NCBI RefSeq assembly: GCF_017357825.1
Contig: NZ_CP046072.1
Location: forward strand, 2,480,001-2,544,000
Source: Sulfurimonas aquatica
GTDB lineage: Bacteria > Campylobacterota > Campylobacteria > Campylobacterales > Sulfurimonadaceae
Length of the DNA: 64,000 nucleotides
Direction of reading: 5' to 3'
Part shown: positions 4,032 to 60,315 of the stretch, piece by piece
Layout: the number at the start of each line of letters is the position of its first letter
Numbering within the stretch: position 1 is the stretch's first letter
Notes under the pieces: generated by a model
What the model saw: the letters and a program-made list of their open reading frames with translations, nothing else
Databases searched by the model: none
Told to the model about the DNA's origin: nothing
Made by a program: the position numbers and the translations under genes

Positions 4032-4119
4032 TTCCTTAATTGTATTTCATAAAATGAAGGAAACCTCCATCTTATACTCCCGTAAAGGAATAAAATCCCT
4101 TTACTCCGCTTGCGCCGCA
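4032..4119 (-). promoter_or_regulatory. Structured luxS leader with possible ribosome-site switch
   Basis: The roughly 170-base gap upstream of luxS holds stacked inverted repeats, read on the minus strand. They are a near-palindrome TGCG-C-CGCA (4111-4119), a hairpin with perfect 7-bp arms GTAAAGG/CCTTTAC (4082-4104), and a hairpin AUGGAGG-UUU-CCUUCAU with one G-U pair (4054-4070). The sequence UUCCUU (4057-4062), inside the last hairpin, is the exact complement of the AAGGAA ribosome site (4032-4037). The two pairings are mutually exclusive, which is the layout of a translational switch. No known riboswitch class was recognised. A dispersed repeat element is the main alternative. Confidence 0.45.
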
Positions 4120-4191
4120 TGAGACGACTAAAGTTATTTAATTACAGATATTTTAGCGAAAAAGTTTGATTGTAAATTGAAGTCATTTTCT

Positions 4192-59897: not shown

Positions 59898-59972
59898 GCG
59901 GGAGTAGCTCAGTGGTAGAGCATAACCTTGCCAAGGTTGGGGTCGCGAGTTCGAACCTCGTCTCCCGCTCCA
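59898..59972 (+). tRNA. tRNA-Gly (anticodon GCC)
   Basis: A full cloverleaf: acceptor arms GCGGGAG and CTCCCGC, D arm with AGCTCAGTGGTAGAGC, anticodon loop CTTGCCAAG, T loop GTTCGAACC and encoded CCA. First of four tRNAs in this cluster. Confidence 0.98.
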
Positions 59973-60012
59973 TTTAATTTAACATTATAAAAACTGTGAT
60001 TTCATAGCAGAT

Positions 60013-60099
60013 GCCCGGGTGGCGAAATTGGTAGACGCAGGGGACTTAAAATCCCCCGGTAGCAATACTGTGCCGGTTCGAGTCCGGCCCCGGGCACCA
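60013..60099 (+). tRNA. tRNA-Leu (anticodon TAA)
   Basis: Acceptor arms GCCCGGG and CCCGGGC pair perfectly; the anticodon stem GGGGA/TCCCC encloses CTTAAAA, anticodon TAA. A long variable arm (class II) and an encoded CCA are present. Confidence 0.98.
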
Positions 60100-60123
60100 T
60101 TGATATGAAAGATATAATTGACT

Positions 60124-60197
60124 GGTGCCATCGCCAAGTGGTAAGGCCGCAGCCTGCAAAGCTGCTATCCCCAGTTCAAATCTGGGTGGCACCTCCA
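60124..60197 (+). tRNA. tRNA-Cys (anticodon GCA)
   Basis: Acceptor arms GGTGCCA and TGGCACC pair perfectly; the anticodon stem GCAGC/GCTGC encloses CTGCAAA, anticodon GCA. Discriminator T and encoded CCA fit tRNA-Cys. Confidence 0.98.
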
Positions 60198-60226
60198 GTT
60201 TTATGATTTTATAACAAACTACACGT

Positions 60227-60315
60227 GGATCTTTGGCAGAGTTGGTCGAATGCACCGGTCTTGAAAACCGGCGAGGGTTACACCTCCCAGAGTTCGAATC
60301 TCTGAGGGTCCACCA
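60227..60315 (+). tRNA. tRNA-Ser (anticodon TGA)
   Basis: Acceptor arms GGATCTT and AGGGTCC pair with two G-U pairs; the anticodon stem CCGGT/ACCGG encloses CTTGAAA, anticodon TGA. A long variable arm and encoded CCA are present. The discriminator base is A rather than the common G. It is the last tRNA of the cluster and may be an integration site for the DNA beyond. Confidence 0.97.

Follow-up and report, generated by a model that had tools for sequence, protein, structure and literature searches.

A modular hairpin repeat dispersed in 5' leaders of Sulfurimonas carries or adjoins the ribosome site and is predicted to adopt two alternative folds

The leader of luxS in Sulfurimonas aquatica contains a copy of a small interspersed repeat, which occurs in many unlinked non-coding copies in Sulfurimonas and near relatives and is patchily distributed at orthologous sites. 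The leader lies in a stretch of 64,000 nucleotides of this genome (contig NZ_CP046072.1, positions 2,480,001 to 2,544,000), called the window here, whose own numbering is used below. With moderate confidence, we propose that the element is a dispersing 5'UTR cassette, which would supply a ribosome site (Shine-Dalgarno sequence, SD) and tune translation in cis. The luxS leader would be one copy of this modular hairpin repeat, which may have spread into 5' untranslated regions.

The luxS coding sequence (4023-3511, minus strand) lies 3' of the hairpin element, and the product is S-ribosylhomocysteine lyase (NCBIfam, 297 bits; cut-off 197). Read 5' to 3' on the minus strand, the leader comprises a candidate -10-like TAAAAT (4155-4150), the hairpin P1 of module A (4126-4113; CGTC ... 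GGCG), the hairpin P2 (4104-4082; GTAAAGGGATTTTATTCCTTTAC, with the arms GTAAAGG ... CCTTTAC), the hairpin P3 (4076-4048) and the SD AAGGAA (4037-4032). The -10-like box was recognised by eye only; it lies upstream of the inserted segment described below and is also present in the insert-free leader L013 of a relative. The arms of P1 co-change among related copies (by eye, uncounted). P1 and P2 correspond to the two upstream stem-loops that had been noticed in the first-pass annotation of this DNA. In P3, the positions 4076-4064 pair with 4060-4048 (13 pairs including G.U) and the SD is left free. The segment UUCCUU (4062-4057) overlaps the 3' arm of P3 and perfectly complements AAGGAA (6/6 pairs), and it can indeed pair either locally or with the ribosome site, as had been proposed. 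The SD-hiding hairpin, designated ALT (4032..4062, minus strand), is longer than originally claimed: beyond UUCCUU/AAGGAA and a 1x1 mismatch (4056 x 4038), AUUUUAU/AUACAAU (4055-4049 with 4039-4045) is pairable in 6/7 positions (4052 x 4042 being T.C), with GAA as the loop. When the leader sequence 5' of the SD was dinucleotide-shuffled, TTCCTT occurred at all in 78/2000 shuffles and formed one arm of a hairpin with 8 or more bp in 2/2000. The fold of the 130-nt leader has a z-score of -2.8, and equal stability was reached in 1/200 shuffles. The alternative pairing in the luxS leader is real, which is settled by the homologous copies elsewhere.

In its own genome, the luxS leader matches four more places, and the copy count marks it as a repeat element. 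The matches include the ribH leader (80% over query positions 5-109), the sequence before a small ORF, whose product is membrane-protein-like by eye and has no NCBIfam match, and, with module A, the 16S-tRNA-Ile spacer of two rRNA operons (L389 and L390 versus L387 and L388). The genome has four 16S genes, and both tRNA-Ala operons are without module A. Weaker matches lie before purT and after one further ORF, which we take to be der. Within the genus, the luxS leader was matched in 47/60 genomes. Among the copies collected, 11 loci were skipped as duplicates and 51 references were obtained, 43 of which were used (alignment A2) to build the covariance model R1; A2 is biased to the common form because eight loci with unusual P2 or P3 were excluded (L073, L074, L078, L080, L081, L086, L089 and L104). 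R1 found three strong copies in the window's genome and seven at E up to 1. A deep search of 12 genomes gave 4-60 matches each at E up to 0.01, inner array units counted, the copy-rich genomes being G036 (60 matches) and G292 (51). Across the order, 46/298 genomes had an R1 match at E up to 0.01, a tally that contains false or doubtful matches and in which counts for copy-rich genomes are lower bounds, as at most 14 candidates were scored per genome. False or doubtful matches are also contained in the 11 each of G287 and G279, because the distant loci are partly unlike the element: among seven loci of G287, G279 and G102 inspected by eye, L211, L212 and L217 are unlike it, L213 is doubtful and L214-L216 (G102) are alike. 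Moreover, a 27-nt pattern for module B was found in at least 120 stretches of named genomes. Among the matches listed, 65/80 titles are Sulfurimonas, and the other titles are Campylobacterales, Helicobacteraceae, Sulfurimonadaceae, Epsilonproteobacteria, Arcobacter and an unnamed bacterium. One metagenome bin with module B is titled Helicobacter pylori, a label that we suspect to be wrong. A collection of viral sequences contained one match, the contig L372 with module B before an ORF, which may be a bacterial or proviral contig.

The element is built from separable parts. In module A, several hairpins follow one another (CTTTAGTCGCC-ACA-GCGGCG) and are succeeded by P2; module A' differs in its 5' part (GCAC..GTGC, GGGCTTCCTGCCGAAGGAAACC) and has a P2 of the same kind; and module B consists of P3, the short hairpin P4 and the SD. 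In L148, L151, L158, L194, L195 and L201, module A' contains an additional hairpin around GTACCCTTGGGGTAT. Module A without B was found at 22 places, 11 of which lie between ORFs of the same strand, with eight copies in antisense and three in sense orientation; one of the sense places (L047) depends on a doubtful ORF, and several places represent the same site in two species. Module A without B also occurs in two of the four rRNA spacers and after a gene. Module B is placed strictly. For the 27-nt pattern, a sense start codon follows 2-12 nt downstream in 118/120 of the matches listed and 5-12 nt downstream in 116/120, and the remaining two stretches end 14 and 2 nt past the match; of 4800 random positions, 362 are followed by a start codon and its ORF at 5-12 nt. 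In the placement of R1 hits, which covers the best 98 of 106 and leaves out the eight weakest, 72 lie before a sense start codon with an ORF, 18 are inner array units, three precede a start codon with an ORF under the length cut-off and five are unlike the family. In the array L198, matches at 468, 579, 690 and 801 are 111 nt apart and the SD ends only the last unit; in the arrays L151 and L187, the inner units retain SD-like ends. Separable modules and tandem inner units amount to a modularity like that of BOX elements. It was ruled out that the end of module B is a generic SD context, since ATAAAATTAAGGA-N3-10-ATG and its reversed control each occur just once in the window's genome. A leader peptide was also rejected because the frame ATG AAG ... 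TAA shifts with the loop length and is absent from some copies (by eye).

Orthologous leaders with and without the element could be compared for luxS and ribH. LuxS is present in 56/60 related genomes, and 30 luxS loci were read. R1 detected the element upstream of luxS in 3/30 loci, those of the window's genome, G032 and G021; conservation before other luxS genes, on which the first-pass annotation had made its proposal depend, was seen in no more than these two relatives of the set. In G036, which is outside this set of 30, only P2 and the SD precede luxS (L173). The closest relatives of the window's genome in the tree of the 30 LuxS proteins (G028, G009 and G003) lack the element; the three carriers need three changes in this tree and its well-supported branches force at least two, one gain and two losses fitting equally well. 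The alignment of the window leader with L013 (relative G018) delimits a 96-nt insert (4042..4137, minus strand) between TAATTAA and AATTAAGGA, which comprises module A together with the larger part of module B but stops short of the SD. The L013 site already contains AATTAAAATTAA. As the insert-free relative has AATTAAGGA, the SD of luxS is probably native to the gene rather than insert-borne. The insert-free luxS leaders L007, L011, L014, L015, L022, L027, L028 and L033 still end in AAATAAAATTAAGGA. These letters are identical to the end of module B; they may be a remnant, or the module may have obtained its ribosome site from them. A second hairpin repeat, about ACGGCAGGCtttAAGCCTAGCCTT flanked by longer inverted arms, was observed upstream of luxS in eight relatives (L007, L022, L024, L027, L028, L029, L031 and L033). 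In 30 ribH leaders inspected by eye, A and B occur together in two (G000 and G016), A without B in G025 and A' without B in G026. Many of the other leaders place the ribH SD inside the end of kdsA, with few nucleotides between the genes, which suggests that the element came with an SD of its own at this gene. Two further repeats of other sequence were noticed upstream of ribH, in L229 (G074) and L233 (G036): GATTCCAAATCAAGTTTGGAATGACG... and TATGCATTCCACCTCAGGAGAGGATGG....

The dispersal that the first-pass annotation had considered under its alternative of a MITE-like repeat is borne out by the many unlinked copies; the terminal inverted repeats of a MITE were not seen on the luxS insert, the one insert inspected by eye in this respect, as its end ATAACTTTAG and the reverse-complemented GTATTTCATA mismatch. 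Neither target duplications nor a transposase or other moving enzyme were identified. That the element moves is suggested by its presence and absence at orthologous sites, on which mobility rests because terminal repeats (luxS insert), target duplication and transposase were not identified.

The genes downstream of the element are functionally mixed. According to NCBIfam, elements precede luxS, ribH, dnaK, groEL, tkt, metG, dapB, ilvC, fabI, hypA, the gene for L7/L12, flgE, fabG, a leuC-type dehydratase gene, clpX, efp and nusA, although several of these proteins are cut by the region edge and score under the curated cut-off; purT is preceded by A without B. No NCBIfam match was obtained for 2/20 downstream proteins. 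Judging from N-termini, we take further downstream genes to be rplI, rpmF, rplS, cysK, purA and nuoH. This mix fits no single metabolite.

Both folds are kept in the family. The family form of ALT is CCTT-N-ATTTTAT-GAA-ATAAAAT-N-AAGG, and its variants keep the arrangement of 7 bp, mismatch and 4 bp (CCTTcATTTTAT/ATAAAATtAAGG, CCTTaAATTTAT/ATAAATTaAAGG, CCTTcATTTTGT/ACAAAATtAAGG and CCTTcATTTTAC/GTAAAATtAAGG). In the 43 aligned sequences, 92.2% of the cells of P2+P3+P4 are paired (shuffle mean 83.7%, 0/500 as high) and 12 pairs show two-sided change (shuffle mean 6.6, 1/500 as high), and P2+ALT reaches 95.0% paired and 13 two-sided pairs (0/500 shuffles for both); these shuffle controls leave kinship in, and the copies were selected partly by a pattern over the hairpin of B. 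Structures slid by 1-3 columns gave at most 63.0% paired. P2 is the most covarying helix, with two-sided change in 9/10 pairs, as compared to 1/5 pairs of P3 and 4/11 pairs of ALT, with few cells each. The CCUU-AAGG pairs show conservation and not covariation: two of the four have one two-sided cell each, which may be an artefact of L002 being displaced by one alignment column. When 65 distinct 27-mers were stacked from the SD, 82.2% of ALT was paired (mean 75.2% and maximum 78.5% in 500 arm shuffles); the same 27-mers were hardly above the shuffles in two-sided pairs (5 versus 4.9) and pair types (14 versus 13.2). For P3, 94 copies form a mean of 8.2 pairs with their own 5' arm versus 6.7 (maximum 7.2) in 300 arm swaps, and 29 copies with an uncommon 3' arm form 6.4 versus 5.5 pairs (at most 6.1). 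Like the alignment shuffles, the arm shuffles and swaps do not take out all kinship. With this caveat, covariation is strong in P2 and modest in both P3 and the SD-hiding hairpin. Between orthologous leaders of two species, entire hairpins can differ with both arms still matching, which suggests that hairpins were swapped between copies. A search for perfect stems found stems of at least 8 bp in 43/78 copies versus 7/78 shuffles and missed imperfect P2 hairpins; it is not used for counting B without A.

The energy test covered 99/119 copies, those with a 27-mer starting in a CTT-like arm. A P3 of at least 4 bp is present in 95 of the 99 copies and absent from four. For the 95 copies, the predicted difference of P3 minus ALT at 25 C has a mean of -1.5 kcal/mol (sd 3.7): 46 copies, about half, are within 2 kcal/mol, and beyond that 37 favour P3 and 12 favour ALT. 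The predicted pairing of the SD with CCUU in 114 copies has a mean of 0.22 at 37 C, 0.33 at 20 C and 0.38 at 10 C. As in SD-sequestering leaders, two mutually exclusive helices, one of them over the SD, are evolutionarily kept. The switch-like pair of SD-hiding and SD-freeing folds that had been proposed for luxS is a property of the family, with modest covariation, whereas the luxS copy itself is predicted to favour the open state strongly. Its ALT is weakened by the mismatch and its P3 minus ALT amounts to about -8.5 kcal/mol at 25 C, so that as a switch it should be among the poorer family members.

We therefore envisage the following scheme, which is drawn from sequences and predicted folds. 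Module A or A' is a string of palindromic hairpins that lies between genes in either orientation, and module B would be a ready-made landing site for the ribosome, in which the 3' arm of P3 (CCUU) also complements the SD (AAGG) downstream. The RNA could adopt two folds: either P3 forms and leaves the SD free, or CCUU pairs with the SD and hides it. As transcription yields P3 ahead of the SD, the open state is expected to arise first, and ALT would follow upon disruption of P3. Since module B abuts a sense start codon and provides or adjoins the SD, it should set the frequency of translation. The balance of the folds may tune the initiation of translation in cis for each gene separately, instead of sensing one metabolite.

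The first-pass annotation had considered it conceivable that the luxS leader is a riboswitch with an SAH- or SAM-related ligand. Such a riboswitch would explain the alternative pairing at the SD, and luxS belongs to SAH recycling. However, 27/30 luxS leaders are without the element, many unrelated genes follow it elsewhere, so that no aptamer of one pathway is indicated, and an aptamer-like core was not noticed by eye. A luxS-specific riboswitch was rejected on this distribution, and we regard a SAM- or SAH-related one as very improbable. In agreement with the annotation, no known RNA class was recognised: at the gathering threshold, Rfam gave only tRNA and rRNA in the window and five loci of its genome. 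At E up to 1, eight loci yielded two hits, both judged to be due to chance, namely a miRNA model off the element and a plastid psbJ model antisense to the ribH copy (24.7 bits versus a gathering score of 53.1). A cluster of four tRNA genes was also noticed at 59898-60312 of the window (plus strand). In translational riboswitches that hide the SD, anti-SD and anti-anti-SD helices are mutually exclusive. The Sulfurimonas element resembles them in its two mutually exclusive helices at the SD, but it has no recognised ligand domain or link to one pathway and is patchy per gene. For Campylobacter jejuni, TPP is the only metabolite riboswitch reported in leaders in the accessible part of a transcriptome study (PMC3847290).

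Three other readings concern what the repeat does. It is possible, albeit somewhat unlikely, that the element is a neutral or selfish hairpin repeat, whose insertion before an SD is tolerated and whose alternative pairing is a by-product of palindromes beside the SD. Module A speaks for this reading, as it occurs without B in both orientations (eight antisense and three sense at the 11 same-strand places), in rRNA spacers and after a gene, and so do the tandem copies and the entire hairpins that differ between orthologous leaders. It accounts less well for module B, which is sense and at a start codon in nearly all matches listed, with an SD hairpin of 7 bp, mismatch and 4 bp that recurs across many variants and a competing P3 in 95/99 copies. 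Alternatively, the copies could be a common target of one trans factor, such as an RNA-binding protein (CsrA or S1, for example), an RNase or temperature, and form a translational regulon of growth genes. The conserved sequence beyond the SD, the sense-only placement, the many core genes (dnaK, groEL, L7/L12, nusA, efp and fabI) and the shift of the predicted SD:CCUU pairing with temperature would fit. RNA thermometers likewise keep the SD in an AU-rich hairpin that contains a mismatch, the arrangement predicted for ALT; the Sulfurimonas element differs from them in its competing upstream hairpin and its mixed downstream genes. We consider a common target quite improbable, as the window's genome has three strong copies and another genome 60 matches, P2 and P3 are highly variable in sequence, the temperature trend is expected of any hairpin, and no binding protein or other trans factor was identified. 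It is rather doubtful, too, that the element is a roaming translational switch, that is, a bistable leader copied before dozens of housekeeping genes that gives them a shared response and, by dispersal and hairpin swapping, builds species-specific regulons.

Literature searches in an open-access library found no description of this element. In the available parts of the respective reports, the closest in kind to the cassette proposed here are the BOX elements of Streptococcus pneumoniae and the TAACTGA repeats of marine Beggiatoaceae (PMC3049150; PMC4679880). BOX elements are described there as small interspersed non-coding repeats of modular build, with tandem inner modules, predicted RNA hairpins and a reported effect on the expression of neighbouring genes (PMC3049150). 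The Sulfurimonas element is likewise small, interspersed, non-coding, modular and hairpin-forming, which is a likeness of kind; unlike BOX as portrayed in that source, its module B lies sense-only at start codons and carries an SD and a conserved SD-hiding alternative hairpin (PMC3049150). TAACTGA repeats are located just before start codons of functionally mixed genes, mostly forward in one genome, and a translational role was proposed, with their spread left unexplained (PMC4679880). The Sulfurimonas element shares the position before start codons of mixed genes, but it is structured and supplies an SD, while the TAACTGA repeats appear in the accessible text as direct repeats of a heptamer, which bear little resemblance to an SD and are not predicted to fold by themselves (PMC4679880). 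With MITE and REP sequences it has in common that it is a dispersed palindromic intergenic repeat of many copies; a repeat survey whose counts include Sulfurimonas gotlandica does not describe this element in its available part (PMC12306157). The strictly sense module B and the luxS insert, by eye free of terminal inverted repeats, set it apart from MITEs.

The usual view of small interspersed repeats is that they are clutter between genes, with an occasional effect on expression. In the present case, core genes are preceded by a repeat module that carries the ribosome site or lies next to it, in up to tens of copies per genome and with a conserved two-state fold. The orthologous leaders with and without the element provide ready comparisons. 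If the folds act in the cell, this would be an example from nature, in a sulfur-oxidising genus, of a dispersing element that spreads control of translation.
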